A stretch of DNA of 64,000 nt from Candidatus Woesearchaeota archaeon (lineage in GTDB: Archaea > Nanobdellota > Nanobdellia > Woesearchaeales > UBA10216). Shown piece after piece: positions 50,232-63,610 of this stretch. Below the pieces are notes generated by a model that searched no databases, was not told where the DNA came from, and saw only the letters and a list, made by a program, of their open reading frames with translations. The stretch lies in assembly GCA_016185705.1 (NCBI GenBank), contig JACPMZ010000007.1:171157-235156 (forward strand). The letters are read 5' to 3'. Numbering within the stretch: position 1 is the first letter of the stretch; each line of letters opens with the position of its first letter. Made by a program: the position numbers and the translations under genes.

Positions 50232-53200
50232 TCAGGTGCAGCCCGGATCCAAATCCGGATCGCATGCAGTGACGTTTATTTCAAGTGATGTTTCATTTGT
50301 TGAGACAAATATTGAGTTTGTTATGCCCGTAATTATTGGCGGCCTGTTGTCTGCTGAAATAACCAGGTTCAGAACCATCTTATCACCGGCCAGACCATCG
50401 CTGACGCTGACATTAATCAGGTGAGACCCGAAATCGCCAATGCCCGGAGTGAAATTGATAAGGCCTGTGGAGGATATATTGAAAATCAGGGTGTCTGCAC
50501 TGAAGCTCAGGTTATCCCCATCAGGGTCTGTGGCTGTCAGCTGCAATGTGAAGAGTGCTCCGGCTGCTGCAAATTGGGGGCTGACAAAGCCAATGCTTGG
50601 AGCATCATTGGCTGGCCTGACAAACAGGATTGCAGCACTATCTGAGGAAAGGTTGCCATCGGACACTGTAAACAGGATGGAGTGCGCTCCAACATCACCC
50701 TGACGGGGAGTGAATCCCACTGCTCCTGTGAAGAGGTTAATGTTAAACAGGCTTGTATTATCCGTGAAGCGGATTACGTCGCCATCCGGGTCAGATGCGC
50801 TGAGTGTGAAGCTGAAGAAGGCGTCCTCAACTGCGTTCAGCTCGCCTGCCGGGCTGATGACAGCAGGCCTGTTGACGTTAACTATGGTGAGGACAAAGTC
50901 CTGCGAGACATTGTCAAATCCGTCGCTTACAATTATTCTTAATCTGTATCTGCCTGCATCATTGAAGGTTGTTTGCAAGGCCATGCTGCTATTGGAAACA
51001 ACAAAGCGCTCTGCAATCGGCCTGGGGAAGCCAATGGAGAGCACATCCCTGATGCCAAAGCTTAAGGCATCGCTTTCAGGGTCAGTGGCATTGAGATTGA
51101 GCATAAGCGTACGGTTTTCATCAATGAATATGTCCGGAACCGGCTGCAATACCGGCGGCAGGAAAGTTCTGTTTGCAACGCTAATGTTATGACTGAAGCC
51201 CAGAATGTTCCCTTTGATGTCGCTGCATTGTATGAATTTAGTCAGCGCAGTTCCATTTTGCAGCCCCTGCATTAAAGCGCTGTGGGATGTGCTGTTGGTC
51301 TGGTTGAACAAAGATTTGTCCTCAAACCTGCCGACACTATCGCCGATTCTGCACACAGATGGCTCGTCTGTCTGCATATCAAGGGAAACATTGACAGTTC
51401 CAATCGGCAATGTTGTTCCGGAAACCGGCGTTATGCCTGTAATAGCCGGAGGAGTAATGTCAATGTCAAACCAGGCAATTGCCCGGCTCATAACCCTGTC
51501 GCGCTCCACAGGGTCTTCAATGTCTTCAAATCCAAAAGCGAAGTACAATACCCTGCTGATATTGTCATCTGCCCGGATAGCTGCGCCCCCATCGCCTATA
51601 TAATTGAAAACTGTTCTGCCAAATTCATCTGCCAAAATCTGTTCTCCGCTCTCAGCTACATCCAGCAACAGGCCCCGGCTGACAGGATCACCGGGAACTC
51701 CAATTATGTTCTGCAATCCAGCCGCAGCTCTGATGAAAGTGGCATGAAGCGACTGCCCGTAGAAGCTTTTATCTCCAATATCTCTTCCTATTTTGCTGCC
51801 GGACAATAGCAGGAATCCGCCGCTATCAAGATATTCCTGCAGCAACACTCTTTCTGCAGCGTTCAGGGTTGCTTCATCATCGCCGGTGAACCAGACAACC
51901 AGGCGGATGTCCTGCAGCAGCTCTCTGGTAACGGGCTGGCCCTCAGTATCTCTTACCAGCACGTCAAGCCCTGCATTTGTCAATGCTGCCTGATACGCAT
52001 TAAGCGCAGGGGAATCAAGCTCGTCATCTACCAGCAGGGCCACTATTTTATCTGATATGAAAATGCTGTGGCTCTTCGCATTATCCGAAAGGAAAGTTTC
52101 TCCGGGCACCGGAACAGCCCTTACTGTAAGGTTGTGCTGCCCCGGCGCCGGAGAGTAATCGAATTTGGATAATTGATTTGCTCCTGCATCCAGCGGGATG
52201 GCCCTGCTGTCCAGCACATTTCCGTCCTCAAGGAATTCAACAGTGACATTTTCCGTGCCATTCCCTGTATTGCGGATTTCAAAGAGGATGTCAACCCTGC
52301 CGGCAGGACGCGCAACGAAAGGAGCTGTTACCCTGCTCATCACGATATTATCTGCCGGCCTCTCGAAAGCAGCCGCGGCTTCTCCCAAATTCCCTGCCCT
52401 GTCCCTTGCAAAAATTTGCAGGACATGCCTGCCATGTGAGATGTTGAGCGTGAAACCGCCGATTGGCGCATTTTGCTCTGCAGAGGAATCCAGCATAAAT
52501 GTTGCGCTGGCAATTTCATCCACGGCAAAGGAAACGGCTATCGTGGCATCTGTTGTAACCTGGCCGTCCAATGGAGAGAGCAGTGCAACAGCAGGCCTGG
52601 TGGCATCCAGGGTGAGCCGTCCATAGGACGCGGTTACTCTGTTGCTTGTGTTGTCAGCCGCTTCAACAATAAATGCGTATATGCCGTCTTCAGCCGGTCC
52701 TGCAACAACTGCCTCAAACAATCCGGACGTGGAGTTAAAGGCCAGGTTAAACCTGCTTTCCAGGAATTCAGCGTTCACATTTTCTATTTTCTGGTCGTCA
52801 GTGGCGTTGACACGAATGGTGATTATGTCATTGGCGGCAGTGGTCACTTTCGGGATTACAACTATGCTGTGTATTGCCGGGACACGGTCAGATGCAGCAA
52901 TTGCGAACAATCCAAACCGGCTTATGCCAGAAAATTCGTTCAGCAACGGGAAATGCGCTGCCTGAATTCTGTTTATGCCTGGATTGCCTAATGAATATAC
53001 TCCCAATGAATTCTTAGAGAGGTCTCCAAGCAAAGTATCGCTGTACCTTATGGACACATCAAGGTTCTCAATCTTTTCATCCACATTGTTTGAAGAGCTT
53101 ACTTCTATGGTTTCGCCTGTTGTCAGGAACCCCGGACCATTGAGCGCGCCGTTTGTCTGCCGGGCAATCAGTATGCTGCCATTCGCTATTGTTTCAGCGG

Positions 53201-56200
53201 CTCTGCCTTGTATTCTTACTCCAATCTCATCCATAAGGTCAATGTTGATTTCCTGGCCTGCTGCAGCATCCAGGGCTACAGACACATTGTTGATTCCTCC
53301 TGATATCTGGAATGACACTAAAGGAGCGATAATTGATTCAAAGTCAGCATCGCCGTCAAAGTCAAACTGCAGCGCAAAGCCGTCTGAACTGAGCCGGTCA
53401 AGCACAAGCACAGAGCCCGCAATAATATCCAGTGCTGGATAAGCAAGGACGAATTTCTCGCTTGCCGTGCTCTTCCTTATTTTCAGAGTTACAGTTCCTT
53501 TGTCAAATGCTTCTACAAGAACCTTATAGCGGCCCGGGGCTTGCAGCAGGTCTATTGTTGTTTCCCTGGTTTGGTTATTGAATCCAAATTGCGAAAGGGG
53601 TATGCTTGCCTCAATGCCTCCATCCGGAAGCATGCCGACGTGGTTGCCAACGCTGTCAAACAGGTGCAGGTTGACAGGCGAGCCTGCAAATACGCTGTAT
53701 TCCGGAGAGAAGATGCTGCTGCCATCGCCGGGCATGGCATTTGCCAGCGCATCCCCGCCTATGGCAAAGGCAGTTGTTTTCATGACATCTATGGTGGACA
53801 CTTCCTTAATCAGCTTCTGGGTTCCGTTTATGAGCGATTCGTAGAACCTTCCTGTTATTATAAAAGGAACTTTTCTTTCTTTAGCTCCCTCTATGGCCTC
53901 TTTTTCCTCGGGAGCAAAATAGCCCAGGTCTGTGTCAGCAACAAGAAGTATTGAGCCTGCAACCTCTGAAGTGAGGTCTTTTATTTCCTGGGGAACCCCC
54001 ACCGAGGGGTCTAAATTGCCATTTTCGAAAAGCTGATATTCCCCTCCTGCCATGACATAGATGGCTTCTATTTTAAGGAACATGTTGCTCGCTGCGTCAA
54101 GACTCATGGCTTCCAGCTCCCCTGCCCTTTTGAGCTTTTGCTCCATTGTTATTGAAGCGTCTTCAAGCTCATGATATGCTATTTTGCCGTTGGTCTTCAG
54201 CTCAAAGCTCTCCGAGGAATTGCTTGCGTCTTTCATCACATCATCTGGTTTTGCATCCGCAAATCCGTGATCTGATGTTATCAGGAATATTGTCTGGTTA
54301 AGGGCGTTCAGCTCTGCAAGCTTTCCGATAATCTGCCCCAGCTGCGCATCTGCTGCTGTAAAGTCCATGTCTTCCGGGTCTGTGCCCAGGCCGTGGTCGT
54401 GGCTCAGCAGGTAGACTGACATAAAATCAGGTGCGTCGTTGAAATCAAACTCATCCCTCTCGGATAATGTGTCCAGATAGTCTATGAAAGCGGCAAAATC
54501 AGTGGTGGAGCCCCCTTCAAAATCCGCGCCGGGGTTGACTATTTTGCTTGGCCCTGCCGGCATTATTCCCTTGTCTATCAGTGAAAATGACGCGCTGTGC
54601 AGCTTGTTTTCAGCCAGATGGTCGTATAATGTCAGTATGCCTTTGCTGCTTAAATGAGCGTTTATATCATCTGGCGTTTGCACGAAGTCATAATCCTGGC
54701 TGAATGTTTTGAAGCGGTCTCCCGGCACTTTATGCTCTTTTGGCTTCAAGCCAGTCATAATTGATGTGTAAGTCGAGAAGGTTGTTTCAGGGAAGGTATT
54801 CAGCGCCTCTCCTTCCAGCTTCTTGAACTGGTCAAGCAGCTCTTCTGTTTTCGGCAAATTTCCGTCATCAAGCTGCTTCCTGAATGTTTCAGCATCAAGG
54901 CCATCCAGCACAATCAGAAATGTTATGTGTGGCATGCTCTTCTTGAACCTGAACTGCCTTTCGTTATCCGCTGCTTCTGTCCAGCCGGCAAACATCTCTT
55001 CAAGGAAAGTGCCTGCATAGCGGTTTATTTCCAGGGTATTGTGGTTTATGAGAGGGTCGTCCTCGTATTCATTTGCTTTTATAAGGTTAAGGGGCTCTGC
55101 AAAATCAACTGCGGTATAAGTTGACTCGTTGCTTTTTACGAGGAACAGCGTATTCCTGCTGCCAGGCCCGCTGTCCCTGTACAGGACAGCAGGCTCCTGA
55201 AGCGAATTTACCACGATATCAGGCCGCGACTGGACAACCATGTCATTCATGACTGCAACATCCTCTTCCACTATCTGGAGTATGGAGAGCGCATTTTCGT
55301 CATCCCTTGAAGCGTCAACAATATCCGCATCAACCTTTGCATAGTGTATCTTGCCATCTCCCTGCCACACAATGTGCGCCTGCGTGAGCAGGTCAACGTC
55401 AATGGCAGGATAATAGCTGGAGTGGACAGCCACTTCCTTGTCAGAAACCTTTGCCGGCTGCGTCCACTTGAGTATTCTGGAAACTGCACGGCCTGATGAG
55501 TTGTCAATCACTGCGTCCAGCTTTGAGTAAAACAGCTTTGAATCTGATGAGCCCGGGCTGTTCTTGTCCTCCTTCCTGAAGTATGCCACATGGACATCAC
55601 CCTCCTTATCAACAGCAAGGTCGCCGTTTCCAATAAATCCGGTCAGCCCGTGGCGCTCGTCAACAGCCATCCAGCGCCAGTTTCCTCTCCTTGGAGATGC
55701 TGTTGCTATATCGCGGGTTACCTTTGCTTCTTCCTGCGCAGCAAATGTGAAGCGCCTCATCGTAGAACTTTCCTCTCCGGTAATTGGGTCTGTGTGGTCC
55801 CATCCGAACGGCCAGGGTGTCGTGCCATCCTGCCTTCCCCCTCCATGTGCATATGTTGCAACCTGCAGACTGTCTCCGAAGTATACTGCCGGAACTCCAG
55901 CTATCTCTGGAATGTGGAATATGGGCACAAGCGGATGCACCGGGATAATCGGCTCCAGGCGCATAAACAGGCTCGGATAGATGGCTGAAAAGTAGAATGT
56001 ATCCGGGTACATCAGGAAAACCCTGGAACTGATAATGGGCAGGTCTGTTGCCGGGTCTATTTCAATCCTGGGCTGCGTCAGTTCAGGCTCCCAGAAGTCA
56101 TCCCAGTAGTAGAACAGCACGTTGGCGGGGTATCCTGTCCCGGGAATTGGGCTGCCTCCTGCATCAACATCAGCATCAAAATTGCGCTGGAGATTTCCTG

Positions 56201-59200
56201 AGGTGCTGTTGAGAGCGAGGAACAGCAGCCAGTCAAAGCCGCCTATGGTATGTATTTCAGTTATTACAAACGGGTTGCCCTCGCTGTCCACTGTTATGTC
56301 CGGGTTCAGGAATTGTCCGCGCCGCGTTGATTCCCGCAAAACAGTCCACTCAACAGGATTGTCAGTGCTCCACTCAAACAGGTCAGAATGCTCTTTGTCC
56401 ACGATAAACCTCCTGTCGGGCTTTGCATAGCCGTACAGCAAACGCTCTGTCACCCCCCTCTGGACTCCCACGGCATGGAGCGTGTTTTCTGAATCAATTG
56501 CAAACCGCACGCTGTCTATCACTCCAAAGACTCCAAAGCCATCCGGGTCACTGACATCTATGCTGCTGTTGTATTTTCCGTTTTTGTCAATGTCCAGGAC
56601 TATCTCATAGTCGCCTTCCTTGTCTGAAACCCAGACTGAGACAACTTCATTGACAATCTCGCCTTTCTTGAAGTTCACGTTCTCAACAGCTCCTGATATG
56701 TCGTTTAGCTGCGCGTCTTCCACCAGCTCGCCAAACCTGATTGCATAAAGAGGAATGATTGTGTCAGCGTCAACTGAGATTCCTGTTACCTTGGCATGCA
56801 CAATATCGAGCTTGTCAAACTCGTCCAGCTTTACACCGCTGACTGATGAGGAATCTGCAAATGCGCACACATTTCCGGTGTCAGGATTCTTGCATGTTAC
56901 CTGCAAACCGGGCCTGAGATGGTAGTCCACAACATCTATGCCCGGCTTGTATTTTTGGTCGCCATCCACGTCAATGACGATGTGGTAAAAGCCCTGGCTT
57001 ACAGACAAGTCAGGCAGCTTGTTTTCAGTGTTCCAGACAAGCTCCTGGATGATTTCGCCTTTTTGGGAAGCAGTTGCAGCTGTCGGGCCGGAGTCTGTCA
57101 CATCTTTGCCGCTCAGGTCAACCTCTGCATCAAATGCCACGGCAGGGTCGTGCGGTATTACATAGATGGTCACGCTCCTGTTTGGAAGGCCGACTGCCGA
57201 GGCGTATACTTCCTCTCCTACGGAGAAATTATAGTCGTACTCGCCAGCCTCATTGACAGAGTCTGCGCCGACAACAGATGAAACAACGAGCGAGAAATGC
57301 TGGGGATTGCCTGCAATGCTGCTTGCTTTTATGGTTATGTTGTAGAACCCGTCTCCGGCGTTTTGAAGCCTGACACGCTCAACATTGTTCACGCCATCCT
57401 TTCCTGCGTTAACGCTCTCCTTTTCCGAGAAGCCGTTTGCCTTGAATATGTTTCCGTTGTATTTATCGCCGTTTGGAGCGATGACAGTCAGGTCTATGTC
57501 ATTCACCAGGTTGTGGCTTGGCGGATTGGTGGGCTGGTCAGTCCACACCAAGGTTACGGCTGCGCTGTGAGTTCTGGAAAAACGTATGGGAACGCTGTTA
57601 AGCTTATCATAGTTTATTTCGTCGCCGTTTGAATTCAGCTTGTTGGGGTCTTCGTTGTCCTTGAACAGCATTGTTGTATGCCTGCCTGATGGAAACATGG
57701 TGTTCGGCATGTTCAGCATGCCCCAGCCCTGGTTGTTGTCTGGAGCGTTCGTTGCTGTTCCATGGGCTGCAGTGCCCTGTCCTCCAATGTCCACTGCACC
57801 CTGGATGAGCAATGCCTTCATGAGGGATGCGGAAGCAGTCTTATAGTCATGCATCTCATCAAGGTATTCAAGAAGCAATGCGAGCGCGCCTGAAACATGG
57901 GGAGTGGCCATGCTTGTGCCGCTTAAGTACATGTAAAGAGGGGCATGCGCTGCACTGCCCGGCATGTTGGTATTTGACGGGATTGGCCTTCTGTTGGCGA
58001 TGGACCACGGCGCGCCGCCCGGACTGTTCGCGTTGAGCCAGGCAATTACTGCTGCATGGTCTTCCACCCTTATGAGCTGATTTGTGAACCCAACAGCAGT
58101 GCTGTTGCGGATGTCAACAGCTTCGTAATTTGAGCCGTAGCCAAAAGCCGGGCTGCCAGTCAGGCCCCTGCCTACGCAGTCATCATGGTCGGTCCTGTTG
58201 TCACCGTTGTTGTCTGATAAATCGCCTGCGTCTGTCTCGCATACACTTGACCTGGTGGAAACGATAAGCCCTCCTGGCGCGACAATGTCAGGCTTAATCC
58301 TCACTGTGTTTGCGGTTGTCGGGTTCGCGTTCGGGCCGCGACTGCTGAAGGATGCTATGTCCTCGGTATCATCGCCGCTTGCAGCGATAGGTCCTGCGCC
58401 AAACCCGCTCATGTATGAAGTCGCGCCCAGCGATGTGTTGGATGGGATGAAAAACCTTCCGGCAAGAGGTCCTGCTCCCGGAGCAGCAGGAAATGCCCTT
58501 GATGTTTCAGTTGCGCCAACCGCTATCACGTTTTTTGCAATGCTCTCCGGCTGGATTGAGTTCTGGCCTGTTCCTCCGCAAGGGTTCTGCTCCTCGTTTC
58601 CTGCTGCGAACACAAGCGCTATGGCAGGATTGTTGTATGAAACCAAGTCCCAGGTTCTGGCTTCAGGCCTGTAAGCGAATGTGCAGTTCACTCCGCCCCA
58701 GCTGTTGGAGTGTATCTTAATGCCCTTGTTGGCAGCATATGTTGTTGCAGCAGGATAAGTTGCTGTGCCCTTTCTCTGCTGCATCATGAAGGTTGCCTTT
58801 GGAGCTGCGCCGCTGTACAGCCCGCCTGAGCCAGAGCCATCGCCGACTGCTGAGCCGGCAACATGCGTTCCATGCCCGTCAAAGTCCCTGGCAGAGCCCG
58901 CTCCTCCGGTCTGCCTAATCTCAAGTATGCGCCCATTGAAGTCAGGGTGCATTGCCGGGTTCTTTGTGCTGCAGTCTGACAGGCTGGTGCAGCCGGTTGC
59001 GTTGTCAAGCCCGGAATCCAGGATGCTTATGTTCCAGTTCTCTCCCCGGAAAACAACTCCGAAAGCGCCGCTGTGCATTTGCGCCACTTTTGTTGTCGCC
59101 CTGCTGATATCGTTCTTGTCAATCGGCTCTATTATTTTGTAGATAAGAACCACCTCAGCTTCCCTGGATACTGCGATTATGTCAGACTCCTTTATGTCCG

Positions 59201-60302
59201 CTGACAGCATATTCTCAAATTGGAACATGTTCGTTGCGTTAAGACTTATCAAGGTTGCATTTATTGCACTGAGCTGGCTCTCTTCAAAAACTTCAATCAT
59301 GAAAGATGTGATTTTATCGGTTAAAGCGTTTGCAACCTTGCTCCGGTATATGCCTGCCTCAAGCTTGAAGGCAGGATGGTATATGTCAGCCCACCTGACA
59401 TTTGAGTTATTCCCTATAGTCGCATGAGCTGTGCCGCTCCTCACCAGGAACGCATTCTGCGCCACAGGCCCTATAATGCTTGCGTTAATCTCCGCCATAG
59501 TGGCGTGCCGAAGGTTTACATCGTGCAGCTGCACTACAAAATATCCTGTCGCTGCTGCAATGAGTTCCGGGTCAATTGCAATGCTCTCTGTAACCGGGTC
59601 AAAGACAAAGGCATTGAGAAATATGTTAATGTCGCAGGCATCTCCCCTGCCGTCTTTGTCTGAATCGGACTGGCTTGGGTTTGCGTCAAACCTGCAGTTG
59701 TCCACAAGGTCTATTATGCCGTCGCTGTCTGCGTCATAATAAGGATTTTCTGCAAGAAACGGAACAAAATTAACGCTGCCACTGATTGTGGCGTTTATTG
59801 CCCCGGAATCCGTTGAATTCCAGAAATTTAAAGCAGCATCAACCGCCTCAGCGCCAGTATTTTCAAGGTTTAGCGGCTGGTTTGCAAACGCATTGGCTCT
59901 TGCTGTCACGTTGGCGGAATTTCCGGAAAGCATGCCCAGCTGACTGGACATGATGCTGTTGCCGCTTATGGAAACATTTGAAGAGTTTACTGCTTCAATT
60001 GCTGTAGCGAAATTGCTTATAATGCAGTGCTGCACTGCAACGCGCTCAGCGTTAATTATTCTTATCCCTGTTCCGCTGCCATCGCCAGCTATGCTCTGGA
60101 AGCTGCACTCCAAAGTTACATTGGAGGCGTTGATGCTGAGGCAGTCGCCAGATGCTGCAATCCCATTCAAAAGGAAGAAGCTGCCTGAATCAACAATGGT
60201 CCCGCAGGCGTCTATGGTTTGCGCAAAAGCGGATGCAGCGAACACAAGCGTGGCTAGAATGACTGCTACACCCACCAGAGCAACGAATCCGCGCTTTTTT
60301 AT
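50232..60302 (-). CDS. Secreted subtilisin-alkaline-phosphatase-like fusion protein, about 3,356 aa
   Basis: Counting from GTG 60275: NosD-like beta-helix (about 20-170), thrombospondin type 3-like Ca2+ motif (182-214), subtilisin S8 domain with Asp420, His468, oxyanion Asn559 and Ser787 (in SGTSMATPH), a long beta region, an alkaline-phosphatase/phosphodiesterase-like domain (about 1780-2170, with VLDG, FPETTFSTYTS, HDHG, SDHGF), a CARDB repeat, a ThuA/amidotransferase-like domain (about 2740-2930), and C-terminal cadherin/Ig-like repeats. I extend the start to AUA 60302 because it adds a basic MKKRGF-type n-region before the signal helix (with Met read from the AUA) and has AAGGTG seven bases upstream; GTG 60275 lacks both. 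It is a secreted protease that may process itself or neighbouring giants. Confidence 0.92.
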   Translation of the reverse strand: MKKRGFVALVGVAVILATLVFAASAFAQTIDACGTIVDSGSFFLLNGIAASGDCLSINASNVTLECSFQSIAGDGSGTGIRIINAERVAVQHCIISNFATAIEAVNSSNVSISGNSIMSSQLGMLSGNSANVTARANAFANQPLNLENTGAEAVDAALNFWNSTDSGAINATISGSVNFVPFLAENPYYDADSDGIIDLVDNCRFDANPSQSDSDKDGRGDACDINIFLNAFVFDPVTESIAIDPELIAAATGYFVVQLHDVNLRHATMAEINASIIGPVAQNAFLVRSGTAHATIGNNSNVRWADIYHPAFKLEAGIYRSKVANALTDKITSFMIEVFEESQLSAINATLISLNATNMFQFENMLSADIKESDIIAVSREAEVVLIYKIIEPIDKNDISRATTKVAQMHSGAFGVVFRGENWNISILDSGLDNATGCTSLSDCSTKNPAMHPDFNGRILEIRQTGGAGSARDFDGHGTHVAGSAVGDGSGSGGLYSGAAPKATFMMQQRKGTATYPAATTYAANKGIKIHSNSWGGVNCTFAYRPEARTWDLVSYNNPAIALVFAAGNEEQNPCGGTGQNSIQPESIAKNVIAVGATETSRAFPAAPGAGPLAGRFFIPSNTSLGATSYMSGFGAGPIAASGDDTEDIASFSSRGPNANPTTANTVRIKPDIVAPGGLIVSTRSSVCETDAGDLSDNNGDNRTDHDDCVGRGLTGSPAFGYGSNYEAVDIRNSTAVGFTNQLIRVEDHAAVIAWLNANSPGGAPWSIANRRPIPSNTNMPGSAAHAPLYMYLSGTSMATPHVSGALALLLEYLDEMHDYKTASASLMKALLIQGAVDIGGQGTAAHGTATNAPDNNQGWGMLNMPNTMFPSGRHTTMLFKDNEDPNKLNSNGDEINYDKLNSVPIRFSRTHSAAVTLVWTDQPTNPPSHNLVNDIDLTVIAPNGDKYNGNIFKANGFSEKESVNAGKDGVNNVERVRLQNAGDGFYNITIKASSIAGNPQHFSLVVSSVVGADSVNEAGEYDYNFSVGEEVYASAVGLPNRSVTIYVIPHDPAVAFDAEVDLSGKDVTDSGPTAATASQKGEIIQELVWNTENKLPDLSVSQGFYHIVIDVDGDQKYKPGIDVVDYHLRPGLQVTCKNPDTGNVCAFADSSSVSGVKLDEFDKLDIVHAKVTGISVDADTIIPLYAIRFGELVEDAQLNDISGAVENVNFKKGEIVNEVVSVWVSDKEGDYEIVLDIDKNGKYNSSIDVSDPDGFGVFGVIDSVRFAIDSENTLHAVGVQRGVTERLLYGYAKPDRRFIVDKEHSDLFEWSTDNPVEWTVLRESTRRGQFLNPDITVDSEGNPFVITEIHTIGGFDWLLFLALNSTSGNLQRNFDADVDAGGSPIPGTGYPANVLFYYWDDFWEPELTQPRIEIDPATDLPIISSRVFLMYPDTFYFSAIYPSLFMRLEPIIPVHPLVPIFHIPEIAGVPAVYFGDSLQVATYAHGGGRQDGTTPWPFGWDHTDPITGEESSTMRRFTFAAQEEAKVTRDIATASPRRGNWRWMAVDERHGLTGFIGNGDLAVDKEGDVHVAYFRKEDKNSPGSSDSKLFYSKLDAVIDNSSGRAVSRILKWTQPAKVSDKEVAVHSSYYPAIDVDLLTQAHIVWQGDGKIHYAKVDADIVDASRDDENALSILQIVEEDVAVMNDMVVQSRPDIVVNSLQEPAVLYRDSGPGSRNTLFLVKSNESTYTAVDFAEPLNLIKANEYEDDPLINHNTLEINRYAGTFLEEMFAGWTEAADNERQFRFKKSMPHITFLIVLDGLDAETFRKQLDDGNLPKTEELLDQFKKLEGEALNTFPETTFSTYTSIMTGLKPKEHKVPGDRFKTFSQDYDFVQTPDDINAHLSSKGILTLYDHLAENKLHSASFSLIDKGIMPAGPSKIVNPGADFEGGSTTDFAAFIDYLDTLSERDEFDFNDAPDFMSVYLLSHDHGLGTDPEDMDFTAADAQLGQIIGKLAELNALNQTIFLITSDHGFADAKPDDVMKDASNSSESFELKTNGKIAYHELEDASITMEQKLKRAGELEAMSLDAASNMFLKIEAIYVMAGGEYQLFENGNLDPSVGVPQEIKDLTSEVAGSILLVADTDLGYFAPEEKEAIEGAKERKVPFIITGRFYESLINGTQKLIKEVSTIDVMKTTAFAIGGDALANAMPGDGSSIFSPEYSVFAGSPVNLHLFDSVGNHVGMLPDGGIEASIPLSQFGFNNQTRETTIDLLQAPGRYKVLVEAFDKGTVTLKIRKSTASEKFVLAYPALDIIAGSVLVLDRLSSDGFALQFDFDGDADFESIIAPLVSFQISGGINNVSVALDAAAGQEINIDLMDEIGVRIQGRAAETIANGSILIARQTNGALNGPGFLTTGETIEVSSSNNVDEKIENLDVSIRYSDTLLGDLSKNSLGVYSLGNPGINRIQAAHFPLLNEFSGISRFGLFAIAASDRVPAIHSIVVIPKVTTAANDIITIRVNATDDQKIENVNAEFLESRFNLAFNSTSGLFEAVVAGPAEDGIYAFIVEAADNTSNRVTASYGRLTLDATRPAVALLSPLDGQVTTDATIAVSFAVDEIASATFMLDSSAEQNAPIGGFTLNISHGRHVLQIFARDRAGNLGEAAAAFERPADNIVMSRVTAPFVARPAGRVDILFEIRNTGNGTENVTVEFLEDGNVLDSRAIPLDAGANQLSKFDYSPAPGQHNLTVRAVPVPGETFLSDNAKSHSIFISDKIVALLVDDELDSPALNAYQAALTNAGLDVLVRDTEGQPVTRELLQDIRLVVWFTGDDEATLNAAERVLLQEYLDSGGFLLLSGSKIGRDIGDKSFYGQSLHATFIRAAAGLQNIIGVPGDPVSRGLLLDVAESGEQILADEFGRTVFNYIGDGGAAIRADDNISRVLYFAFGFEDIEDPVERDRVMSRAIAWFDIDITPPAITGITPVSGTTLPIGTVNVSLDMQTDEPSVCRIGDSVGRFEDKSLFNQTNSTSHSALMQGLQNGTALTKFIQCSDIKGNILGFSHNISVANRTFLPPVLQPVPDIFIDENRTLMLNLNATDPESDALSFGIRDVLSIGFPRPIAERFVVSNSSMALQTTFNDAGRYRLRIIVSDGFDNVSQDFVLTIVNVNRPAVISPAGELNAVEDAFFSFTLSASDPDGDVIRFTDNTSLFNINLFTGAVGFTPRQGDVGAHSILFTVSDGNLSSDSAAILFVRPANDAPSIGFVSPQFAAAGALFTLQLTATDPDGDNLSFSADTLIFNISSTGLINFTPGIGDFGSHLINVSVSDGLAGDKMVLNLVISADNRPPIITGITNSIFVSTNETSLEINVTACDPDLDPGCT

Positions 60303-60997: not shown

Positions 60998-61118
60998 AGT
61001 AACACCCCCTCTCAGCAGGATACGGCAATTCTTTATAAAGATTATCATCGCTTCAGCACTCACGTTTCCGAAAGTTTTATAAAAGGCAAAATCAGAAATT
61101 TGCTGCGAGGTGATGCTG

Positions 61119-61184
61119 ATGGCCAAAGCAAAAAAAGGAGCCAACAAGAAAGAAAAGAAGAAGAACGTGTGCGAGTTCTGCTGA
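61119..61184 (+). CDS. Micropeptide, 21 aa, Lys-rich with C-terminal CxxC
   Basis: The ATG at 61119 follows GAGGTG, and GTTTTATAAAAGGC (61074-61087) is a TATA box at the right distance. The peptide begins MAKAKKGANKKEKKK and ends VCEFC, a CxxC pair that may bind metal or form a disulfide. It is very short, so coding status rests on the promoter, ribosome-binding site and composition. Confidence 0.4.
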   Translation: MAKAKKGANKKEKKKNVCEFC

Positions 61185-61225
61185 TACCCCATGTTCTGAA
61201 ATGATTGTAAGGTTATTTCCCAATA

Positions 61226-61278
61226 AGCAAATCACTTATTCGTTAGGAACAAAGTTCCGATTATTAAAGTGATTTGCT
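61226..61278. repeat. AGCAAAT-family hairpin, upstream of tRNA-His
   Basis: AGCAAATCACTT (61226-61237) pairs with AAGTGATTTGCT (61267-61278). The loop itself contains GGAAC/GTTCC. The outer AGCAAAT/ATTTGCT arms recur in the hairpins at 62296, 62337, 62714, 62756 and 11629, with different inner bases each time. Confidence 0.7.
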
Positions 61279-61326
61279 ATAACTTACCCGAAAATTTAAA
61301 TACCCCAACAAAACACGCAGTGCTAT

Positions 61327-61438
61327 GGCTGCTGTGGTGTACTGGCTAGCATGTGGGCCTGTGGAATTCCGCAGAACGCCTTAGGACCGGGTTCGATACA
61401 ATGTTCCATAAGAAATTGCGAATTTCCCGGCAGCGGCC
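61327..61438 (+). tRNA. tRNA-His (GTG) with two introns
   Basis: Removing two segments gives a full tRNA. G-1 is 61327 and C73 is 61438, both diagnostic of tRNA-His. The acceptor stem is GCTGCTG/CAGCGGC. The D stem is GTGT/GCAT with GG in the loop. The anticodon GTG is at 61361-61363. Intron 1 (61365-61376, 12 bases) follows position 37 in a bulge-helix-loop with CTGT/GCAG. Intron 2 (61398-61424, 27 bases) lies in the T loop in a canonical BHB: outer CCGGG/CCCGG, central TTCG/CGAA, bulges ATA and TTT, inner CAAT/ATTG. Splicing gives loop TTCGATT on stem CCGGG/CCCGG. One mismatch is T27-T43. A TATA box (AAATTTAAATACC, about 61290) is well placed. No CCA is encoded. Confidence 0.9.
61424..61438. 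repeat. tRNA-His 3' end repeat, copy 1 (att-like)
   Basis: The 15-base 3' end of the tRNA (TTCCCGGCAGCGGCC) is repeated exactly at 62399-62413, and its core recurs at 62858-62872. Duplicated tRNA 3' ends are the usual attachment-site trace left by tRNA-targeting integrases. Confidence 0.75.
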
Positions 61439-61492: not shown

Positions 61493-61792
61493 ATGGATGG
61501 CTCTGTAGCGGTGAGAATTGAGAAACGCAAATTAGCTGAGATTAAGGCAATCTCAGATGAGGAAAAGCGCAAAAACTCGGAAACATTCCGGGAAATTATA
61601 GACTTGGGGCTGAAAGAAAAGAAGTTAGCCATAGCGCTTGAAAAATACGAGGGAGGCGTTGTCAGCACTGGCCGAGCTGCCGAGATAGCAAGCATTCCGT
61701 TAAGCAAATTTCTCGATATTTTGAGAGAGCGAAACGTTCCATTTAAGTATACAGTTAAAGAGCTGCAGGAAGACTTTGAGGGCTTTTTATGA
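61493..61792 (+). CDS. UPF0175-family antitoxin, 99 aa
   Basis: The ATG at 61493 (MDGSVAVRIEKRK) lies about 25 bases downstream of TTTATATAC (61461-61468), suiting a leaderless mRNA; a TTG further upstream is less likely. The N-terminal half resembles a ribbon-helix-helix. The C-terminal half has the UPF0175 pattern EGGVVSTGRAAEIASIPLSK followed by ILRERNVPFKYT. It overlaps the toxin gene by ATGA. It would neutralise the DUF3368 toxin and repress the operon. It is the first gene after the tRNA-His, in module 1. Confidence 0.85.
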   Translation: MDGSVAVRIEKRKLAEIKAISDEEKRKNSETFREIIDLGLKEKKLAIALEKYEGGVVSTGRAAEIASIPLSKFLDILRERNVPFKYTVKELQEDFEGFL

Positions 61793-62310
61793 TTTCCAAT
61801 GCAGGACCTCTGATAAACTTCGCCAGGATAAATGAGCTAGACCTGCTTATACGCACGGTTGGACATCTGACTATCGGGCAAAAGGTATTTGCGGAAGTGA
61901 CTATCCACGAAACGCAGGAAACAGCGCTGATAAAGGAACAGATAGAATCAGGCAATATCACCGTCAGCAAAATTGGTGCGCAGGGGTTGGAGGAGCAAAT
62001 TAAAAAAATGTTCAAAGAGCTGGGCAAAGGAGAAACAGAAGCTATAAGTTTAGCCCTAAACCTAAAGGAAAAAAAAGTATTGCTTGACGATTTAAGGGCA
62101 AGAGAAGCAGCACGATTCAGCAACCTAAAACCTGTTGGCTCACTGCGAGTCCTGTTAATGGCATTTGAAAAAAACCTTGTCAGCGAGAAGAAATTAAAAT
62201 CTATTTTCACGCAAATGCTGCAAAACAAGCTGTGGATAAGCGGTGAAGTGGCTATGAAATTCCTGGAACTCTTTGAAAAAATGAAACAATCTTATAGCAA
62301 ATCTCGGTAA
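61789..62310 (+). CDS. DUF3368 PIN-like toxin, 173 aa
   Basis: The DUF3368/PIN-like marks are ISNAGPLINFARI (first strand), LGKGETEAISLAL (conserved glutamate region) and LLDDLRAREAA (acidic residues). This family is paired with UPF0175 antitoxins in archaea and cyanobacteria and is presumed to be a ribonuclease toxin. The gene overlaps its antitoxin by four bases. A double hairpin and a tRNA-end repeat follow directly. Confidence 0.85.
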   Translation: MISNAGPLINFARINELDLLIRTVGHLTIGQKVFAEVTIHETQETALIKEQIESGNITVSKIGAQGLEEQIKKMFKELGKGETEAISLALNLKEKKVLLDDLRAREAARFSNLKPVGSLRVLLMAFEKNLVSEKKLKSIFTQMLQNKLWISGEVAMKFLELFEKMKQSYSKSR

Positions 62311-62385
62311 TTTTTGAACTTTTGCGAGATTTGCTAAATAGCAAATTGCATGTAAAATGTTCAAATACCTTTGCAATTTGCTATT
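62296..62385. repeat. Hairpin pair of the AGCAAAT family (end of module 1)
   Basis: AGCAAATCTCG (62296-62306) pairs with CGAGATTTGCT (62325-62335). AATAGCAAATTGCA (62337-62350) pairs with TGCAATTTGCTATT (62372-62385). The first hairpin overlaps the toxin stop region. The pair precedes tRNA-end repeat copy 2 by 13 bases. Confidence 0.75.
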
Positions 62386-62398
62386 AGGAAATTCTTTA

Positions 62399-62413
62399 TT
62401 CCCGGCAGCGGCC
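62399..62413. repeat. tRNA-His 3' end repeat, copy 2 (att-like)
   Basis: TTCCCGGCAGCGGCC here is identical to the tRNA-His 3' end. It is not part of a second tRNA, because no acceptor, D or anticodon arm precedes it. It closes module 1 and opens module 2. Confidence 0.75.
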
Positions 62414-62702: not shown

Positions 62703-62713
62703 GCGGTTCTTAT

Positions 62714-62804
62714 AGTAAATCTCATTAATTTATGAATAAAGAGTGAGATTTACTAAACAGCAAATCGCAATTTAAAAGTTCAAGTATTTATGCGATTTGC
62801 TGTT
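62714..62804. repeat. Hairpin pair of the AGCAAAT family (end of module 2)
   Basis: AGTAAATCTCA (62714-62724) pairs with TGAGATTTACT (62744-62754). AACAGCAAATCGCA (62756-62769) pairs with TGCGATTTGCTGTT (62791-62804). The arrangement copies that at 62296-62385, again between a gene and a tRNA-end repeat. Confidence 0.75.
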
Positions 62805-62857: not shown

Positions 62858-62872
62858 CGGCAGCGGCCCTTT
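62858..62872. repeat. tRNA-His 3' end repeat, copy 3 (att-like)
   Basis: CGGCAGCGGCCCTTT is shared exactly with 62403-62417 and partly with the tRNA itself (CGGCAGCGGCC). It overlaps the stop codon of the convergent vapC gene. It is the right border of module 2. Confidence 0.65.
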
Positions 62873-63263
62873 AATAACTCTCCACCCTCAACCCTGTTAC
62901 TCTGGTAAAGTGTTTGGTGTTTCTTGTTAATACAGTTTCGTTTTCAAGCAATGCCGCACCCGCAATCATGGAGTCAACTGCGTCTATTTCTTGCCCATTT
63001 TTAATTAATGAGCCGTGTATTTCTCCGGCCTTCTCAGCAGATTCCCGTGTCATTTTTATTGTGTCGAACGCTGCTATAGTCTTAATAACTTTAACCAGTT
63101 CTGCCTCAGATTTGCCCGATAACGCAATACCAGTCCACAACTCAAATATTGTAGGAGCAGAAACCCTATAAATTTCATCATCGGCAAACATTTTCTGCTG
63201 TTTCAACATAGCTGCCTCATCTTTATTCATTACATCAATGATAAAATCTGTGTCCAGAATCAT
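62871..63263 (-). CDS. vapC: VapC-type PIN toxin, 130 aa
   Basis: This is a complete small PIN nuclease: first Asp in MILDTDFIIDVMNKDE, a middle Glu in IFELWTGIAL, acidic residues in EIDAVDSMIAGAALL, and a last strand ETVLTRNTKHFTRVTGLRVE. This is the standard VapC layout, a Mg2+-dependent RNase of toxin-antitoxin pairs. It overlaps the antitoxin gene by ATGA. Its stop codon lies in the third tRNA-end repeat. Confidence 0.9.
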   Translation of the reverse strand: MILDTDFIIDVMNKDEAAMLKQQKMFADDEIYRVSAPTIFELWTGIALSGKSEAELVKVIKTIAAFDTIKMTRESAEKAGEIHGSLIKNGQEIDAVDSMIAGAALLENETVLTRNTKHFTRVTGLRVESY

Positions 63264-63493
63264 TGTAACCTAAGCGCTGTTTTTTTAACCCGTTCATTCA
63301 TCCGCTTCCTAGTGGCTTTGATATGCCTCCGCATATTCTCAGCCTCCTCTGGCTTTAAAATCCCGACCAACTTGGACAACGGATCTTTCTTAACAGACTT
63401 AATAATAACGTCAGTGAAACTTTCCTTGTCGTCTTTGGCGTTTTTCAACAATGTGTAAGCTTCATCCGTTATCGAAATAGTTTTCGTGCCCAT
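63260..63493 (-). CDS. vapB: VapB-type antitoxin (DUF217 family), 77 aa
   Basis: The ATG at 63493 gives MGTKTISITDEAYTLLKNAK, the typical N-terminal strand and helix of this archaeal VapB family, then ESFTDVIIKSVKK and a Lys/Arg-rich tail. The frame could open at 63511, but a TATA-like GCTTAAATAATC just upstream of 63493 favours the shorter leaderless form. It is co-translated with vapC and likely represses the operon. Confidence 0.85.
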   Translation of the reverse strand: MGTKTISITDEAYTLLKNAKDDKESFTDVIIKSVKKDPLSKLVGILKPEEAENMRRHIKATRKRMNERVKKTALRLQ

Positions 63494-63610
63494 GCATACA
63501 CAGATATACACAGATTATTTAAGCTTTTCTATTTTGTTAAGCCAGCTTTCCAAGCATGCACCGCGCCCTGCTACCTTTTAACCGCCGAACCCCTTCTGTG
63601 CGCTGCTTTT

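Follow-up and report, generated by a model that had tools for sequence, protein, structure and literature searches.

A doubly interrupted tRNA-His gene in a Woesearchaeota genome and recurrent tRNA introns at position 59/60 in Woesearchaeales

The window analysed here, a 64-kb stretch of DNA from a Woesearchaeota draft genome (G000; 1.23 Mb in 14 contigs, 95.6% complete), carries a doubly interrupted tRNA-His(GTG) gene on the + strand at 61327-61438, with G-1 at 61327 and C73 at 61438. We are highly confident that this is a functional tRNA-His(GUG) gene whose transcript would be spliced twice, and that its T-loop intron is one of a set of introns at position 59/60 found across the lineage.

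Anatomy and splice motifs of the tRNA-His gene

The three exons of the gene (38, 21 and 14 nt) make up a tRNA of 73 nt (Table 1). ARAGORN and Rfam (gathering threshold), run on the unspliced sequence, found no tRNA anywhere in the 64-kb window, because of the introns. When both inserts are cut out, ARAGORN gives tRNA-His(gtg) with a G-1:C73 pair. Removal of the T-loop insert alone yields an ambiguous call, tRNA-?(His|Pro) or tRNA-Ser, and removal of the anticodon insert alone yields no tRNA by ARAGORN. The spliced form thus bears the GTG anticodon and the encoded G-1 opposite C73 that identify tRNA-His, together with a standard T arm, as the earlier note had read from the letters; its blemishes are a T27xT43 mismatch and a 4-nt variable loop. 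The TATA box upstream of the gene also precedes tRNA-His in the sister genomes G001 and G002. A small lysine-rich ORF ending in KKKNVCEFC lies just upstream of the gene (window 61118-61187), and a close match to it precedes the G002 tRNA-His. A 3347-aa ORF on the - strand (window 50232-60275) contains a subtilase-like stretch as well as many repeats and probably encodes a giant surface protein.

Table 1. Features of the interrupted tRNA-His gene and displaced copies of its 3' end (window coordinates)
Feature	Position	Strand	Description and basis
TATA box of tRNA-His gene	61295..61302	+	TTTAAATA, ~25 nt upstream of gene; read directly
Exon 1	61327..61364	+	G-1 to G37: acceptor 5' strand, D arm, anticodon GTG; ARAGORN on spliced sequence; tRNA-His covariance model R1, 74.3 bits over gene
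Intron 1	61365..61376	+	12 nt, AATTCCGCAGAA, position 37/38, bulge-helix-loop; fold and sister comparison (G002, G001)
Exon 2	61377..61397	+	C38 to T59: anticodon stem 3' strand, variable loop, T stem 5' strand, TTCGAT; ARAGORN and covariance model
Intron 2	61398..61424	+	27 nt, ACAATGTTCCATAAGAAATTGCGAATT, position 59/60 (T loop), canonical hBHBh'; computed fold and sister comparison (G001, G002)
Exon 3	61425..61438	+	T60 to C73; ARAGORN and covariance model
Displaced exon 3 copy, putative att scar	62398..62413	+	16 bp, ATTCCCGGCAGCGGCC; 1.0 kb downstream of tRNA-His
Second displaced exon 3 copy	62858..62868	+	11 bp, CGGCAGCGGCC; 1.4 kb downstream of tRNA-His

The T-loop intron sits in a bulge-helix-bulge (BHB) motif, which is the computed minimum-energy fold of the T arm: an outer helix CCGGG/CCCGG, a 4-bp central helix TTCG/CGAA and an inner helix CAAU/AUUG, with the bulges AUA and UUU, of 3 nt each, on opposite strands. 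Excision at this motif restores a standard T arm and tRNA, and the canonical BHB at 59/60 that had been proposed, with its 3-base bulges, is therefore borne out by the fold. Likewise, intron 1 folds as the proposed bulge-helix-loop (BHL), the relaxed form of the motif at 37/38: the insert follows directly after position 37, a central helix CUGU/GCAG is formed to the anticodon loop, and a 3-nt bulge, AAC, lies on the 3' side. The chance that a random T-loop insert would offer the central helix in exact register is 0.028, falling to 0.0005 when the 4-bp inner helix is required as well; for intron 1 the chance of the central helix is 0.027 per random insert. A strict scan for T-loop BHB motifs over both strands of the 64-kb window returned the tRNA-His gene as its sole match.

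Intron-minus alleles in sister genomes

Both inserts can be compared with the corresponding genes of two genomes of the same genus. The tRNA-His of G002 is without intron 1 and has a T-loop intron of 30 nt in the same BHB motif, with a nearly identical computed fold. Conversely, the G001 gene is without the T-loop intron and has an anticodon intron of 16 nt, different in sequence and forming the same CUGU/GCAG helix. The intron-minus alleles match the predicted borders exactly, so that both borders are fixed independently of folding. These alleles in sister species are the strongest evidence for both introns, and with the exact coordinates and the ARAGORN result on the spliced form they confirm that the tRNA-His gene with two introns, of 12 and 27 nt, at the positions given is real.

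The two introns are present or absent independently of each other among the sister species. Within the family, an intron at 59/60 is found in the corresponding gene of G005, G008, G011 and G017, and that site is uninterrupted in G010, G012 and G013. The sister genomes also bear on an explanation of the inserts as an assembly or binning artefact, which could be imagined for a draft in 14 contigs that is probably a metagenome assembly like its relatives. Yet in one separate sister genome (G002) a T-loop intron occupies the equivalent position, and another (G001) is interrupted at the anticodon site; judged by these independent assemblies the artefact reading is refuted for practical purposes, and we assign it a negligible probability.

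The only tRNA-His detected in the genome

A covariance model of the mature tRNA-His, run over the whole genome, found one tRNA-His, the interrupted gene, at 74.3 bits; the second-best hit, of 60.6 bits, falls at a gene that ARAGORN calls tRNA-Arg. A second, intronless tRNA-His, the finding that the earlier note had named as one that would speak against it, was thus looked for in the 95.6% complete draft with this model and not found; sister species and family members do have one, in several cases near hisS (assigned by TIGR00442). The assembled stretch upstream of hisS in the window's genome holds no tRNA. As far as can be detected, and with missing sequence as a caveat, this genome appears to have no source of tRNA-His besides the interrupted gene, and since no other tRNA-His was found there, splicing of that gene is probably essential.

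These data also allow us to weigh whether the interrupted gene is a decaying pseudogene, the true tRNA-His lying in the unassembled part of the genome. Such a reading could draw on the second intronless gene near hisS in sister and family genomes, on the incompleteness of the draft and on the T27xT43 mismatch of the mature form. However, the site upstream of hisS is assembled and empty of tRNA, the exons are almost the same in G001 and G002, with the mismatch conserved too, the TATA box is likewise shared, and each insert folds into a splice motif in exact register. We consider a pseudogene very improbable and retain the reading of a functional, twice-spliced gene.

In the family, a conserved structured leader (GCUGCRAUUAAAC...GYCGYGGU; UUGCAGCNNNAGCUGCGGAG) follows the intronless second tRNA-His at loci L231, L220, L222, L032, L209, L232 and L221, several of them near hisS, and stands directly ahead of an ORF, which in the one case tested had no Pfam or NCBIfam match. 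The leader is a possible histidine-related regulatory element. In G006 this second tRNA-His lies ~20 nt ahead of the apparent hisS start codon.

Introns at 59/60 in the genome and across the order

The genomes were searched with a pattern for 59/60 BHB introns (GGTTCRA, spacer, YGAA, bulge, CC), which covers introns of about 15-44 nt and misses longer ones. Seven further tRNA genes of the window's genome show a fully paired T stem, a 4-bp TTCR/YGAA helix and an ARAGORN tRNA call once the intron is excised, bringing the genome, with tRNA-His included, to at least eight tRNA genes with canonical 59/60 BHB introns. A tRNA-Ile(GAT)-like gene (L017; G000:C5:15178-15281) seems to hold an insert at 59/60 whose central helix, TTCG/CGCA, is imperfect; this may be a relaxed T-loop intron. 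Introns at 59/60 were confirmed likewise in G001, G002, G003, G004, G005, G007, G008, G009 and G010. Over the order (193 genomes) the pattern gave 704 matches against 209 for reversed-pattern controls, so that about one third of the matches are background; 82 of the 193 genomes exceed their own control by at least 3, and 2 fall short of it by as much. We counted tRNA genes and not isotypes, because ARAGORN isotypes are unreliable for T-loop-spliced genes that also hold anticodon introns, an example being the 'Phe(aaa)' called in L276. Four identical pattern matches in G005 (GGTTCAAAGCCCCGCCCTTTAGGGCGAAATTCC) were considered as copied introns and dropped, being apparently a non-tRNA repeat. The suggestion that T-loop introns and double introns are curiosities is not supported: introns at 59/60 are common in this genome and in the order, and both kinds are documented in Archaea (PMC4090602).

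Introns at this site also come and go between close relatives. The tRNA-Arg(TCG) gene has a 44-nt 59/60 intron in G002 and is intronless in the window's genome. G002 also has a tRNA-Gly(TCC) interrupted at 59/60, and a Gly(TCC)-like gene of the window's genome (in L019) has an unbroken T arm. Near-identical introns in tRNAs of different isotypes, the mark of a transposed intron, occur in the lineage: the introns of tRNA-Arg(TCG) and tRNA-Glu in G002 align with a local score of 24.5, the best of 820 shuffled pairs reaching 10.5, and the tRNA-Ala(CGC) intron of the window's genome is related to this pair (score 15.0). The tRNA-His T-loop intron itself resembles, by eye, only that of the G002 tRNA-His. 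A pair of near-identical introns in G009 was not used as evidence of transposition, because the two tRNAs share an identical T arm and acceptor and duplication or gene conversion explains the case equally well.

A preference for this site could follow from the motif. In each 59/60 intron, T54-T55-C56-R57 of the T loop would form one side of the central helix of the BHB, and the 3' end of the intron would supply YGAA and two bulge bases. Such a design would suit almost any tRNA, since nearly all T loops contain TTCR and YGAANN completes the BHB without any change in the exons. Position 59/60 would then be a permissive landing site with fast gain and loss of introns and occasional passage from one tRNA gene to another. 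A wider reading, which we find plausible though not quite probable, is that Woesearchaeales have undergone an undescribed, order-wide burst of portable 59/60 introns ending in YGAANN, moved by reverse splicing or recombination and removed by a single-subunit EndA, and that standard tRNA finders miss many of their tRNA genes and make the genomes look poor in tRNAs.

Displaced 3' ends downstream of the gene

Two short copies of exon 3 lie downstream of the gene (Table 1); in G002 the 3' end of tRNA-His is repeated over 11 bp (L164:10828-10838), 2.0 kb downstream of the gene. The displaced copies are trailed by GGCCCTTT or GGCCCTC, near to the GGCCCTT that follows tRNA-His in other genera, and the tRNA-His gene itself now continues with GGCCTA. 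The copies are probably displaced original 3' ends, left by serial integration into tRNA-His. It had been supposed that the T-loop intron disrupts the region used by integrases; the copies at 62398-62413 and 62858-62868 do not support this, their core being essentially 3' of the intron. Because the shared core (11-16 bp) lies essentially within exon 3, the intron would border the putative integrase target without interrupting it.

This placement bears on the idea that an intron may protect a tRNA gene (Randau and Soell 2008, as cited in PMC4033280; also voiced in PMC3293823), according to which the T-loop intron would be kept as a shield against integrases that use the tRNA 3' end. The gene was apparently an integration target, with exon 3 copies 1.0 and 1.4 kb away that run into CTTT much as intact tRNA-His genes of other genera run into CTT. 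The repeated core, however, is left whole by the intron, G002 has the T-loop intron and yet also a displaced copy, and most 59/60 introns sit in tRNA genes other than tRNA-His. We think a shielding role unlikely.

The same copies could be taken to mean that the T-loop intron was imported by an integrating element with the intron in its att site, as proposed for the Caldiarchaeum tRNA-Thr (PMC3293823). Displaced exon 3 copies do lie downstream in both genus members that bear the T-loop intron, and the copy at 62398 matches the intronless T loop by one more base than it matches the intron-bearing one; but one more base would match by chance in 1 of 4 cases, and this is no evidence. Had crossover taken place inside the shared core, the intron would have stayed with the host; the ORFs between the copies include no recognised integrase gene, and introns at 59/60 are spread over many tRNA genes unrelated to one another, which together make import quite improbable. 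We prefer to see the T-loop intron as one of the lineage-wide 59/60 set.

These ORFs encode a protein resembling the UPF0175 antitoxins and a candidate PIN protein of DUF3368 type that falls below the Pfam cut-off. Adjoining tRNA-His, window 61496-62310 holds a toxin-antitoxin-like module (UPF0175 antitoxin, PF03683, and a PIN/DUF3368-like protein), and a second such module, a PIN protein (PF01850) with a small partner, occupies 62871-63511. Hairpins with the arms AGYAAATC/GATTTRCT, mostly in tandem pairs, are found at window 61226-61278, 62295-62385 and 62713-62804 and nowhere else in the window; one is ahead of tRNA-His and one pair ahead of each 3' fragment. They belong to a dispersed repeat with about 7 loci in the genome, and a link of these palindromes to integration was rejected, other copies of the repeat lying away from tRNA-His fragments.

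Splicing enzymes and proposed processing

The window's genome has one gene for the splicing endonuclease EndA (176 aa; PF01974, 2.1e-28), found by Pfam and by a direct protein search with E up to 10, and one rtcB gene (1.5e-168). A single EndA gene is the rule in almost all relatives as well. By EndA protein, the closest named relatives of the genome are Woesearchaeota RIFCSPHIGHO2_02_FULL_45_15 (80%) and ARS1199 (82%); the closest solved structures are N. equitans EndA (3iey chain A, the most similar), the M. kandleri enzyme and the M. jannaschii alpha4 enzyme. The gene count in a 95.6% complete genome suggests an alpha4 type, for which a single catalytic subunit gene of about 180 aa is expected; a diverged beta subunit, or one encoded in the missing part of the genome, may nevertheless exist.

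We propose that EndA would cut the T-loop BHB after T59 and before T60 and the anticodon-loop BHL after G37 and before C38, and that RtcB would ligate the three exons. Transcription of the gene, these cleavages and the ligation are inferred, as are the order in which the introns are spliced and the way they spread. The alpha4 enzymes are described as narrow in substrate specificity (PMC6379350), which would agree with the canonical BHB of the T loop; to cut the anticodon BHL, such an enzyme would have to be assisted by the tRNA body. The A. fulgidus alpha'2 enzyme did cut a BHL at 37/38 when given full-length pre-tRNA (PMC6379350). That intron 1 is not a canonical BHB, while the single EndA gene suggests the narrow alpha4 type, counts against double splicing.

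Comparison with known systems

Introns at position 59/60 and double introns are documented in archaeal tRNAs (Marck and Grosjean 2003; Sugahara 2007, 2008; as reviewed in PMC4090602). The tRNA-His described here is like the multi-intron tRNAs of that review in its BHB or relaxed BHL borders, in the pairing of the canonical 37/38 site with a non-canonical one and in its intron lengths, 12 and 27 nt falling within the published range of 11-129 nt. It differs in having three exons in a tRNA-His and in its host, Woesearchaeota being absent from the lists in the papers found; a literature search on Woesearchaeota or DPANN and tRNA introns, covering few subscription papers, returned nothing. The gene is thus a further example of an established kind of intron in a lineage that is new for it, and the order-wide 59/60 pattern may be undescribed.

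Among Archaea the Thermoproteales are rich in tRNA introns, with 0.84 per tRNA gene against 0.21 overall (PMC8450103), and intron transposition has been proposed there (Fujishima 2010, as cited in PMC4033280). The genomes studied here are like them in carrying similar introns in different tRNA genes and in rapid gain and loss among related species. Unlike in Thermoproteales, the recurrent site tested here is 59/60, with a fixed TTCR/YGAA helix, and where Crenarchaeota have an alpha-beta pair, a single EndA gene was found. Should introns at 59/60 be as frequent in Woesearchaeales as these counts indicate, tRNA inventories of the order, and inferences drawn from them, will be wrong until intron-aware searches are made, and Woesearchaeales would join Thermoproteales as a second test bed for the spread of tRNA introns.

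The split tRNA-His of N. equitans (PMC4090602) shares with the present gene the amino acid, the break at 37/38, a relaxed motif and the EndA subunit most similar among solved ones (3iey chain A), but N. equitans joins two transcripts, whereas the tRNA-His here would be one transcript with two introns in cis. At the Caldiarchaeum tRNA-Thr locus (PMC3293823), too, close relatives have alleles with one or two introns, and displaced pieces of tRNA lie next to the gene; the fragments here differ in being very short 3' ends with no recombinase between them. Beside these systems the single tRNA-His gene offers a clean case, with intron-plus and intron-minus alleles at both sites in close relatives.
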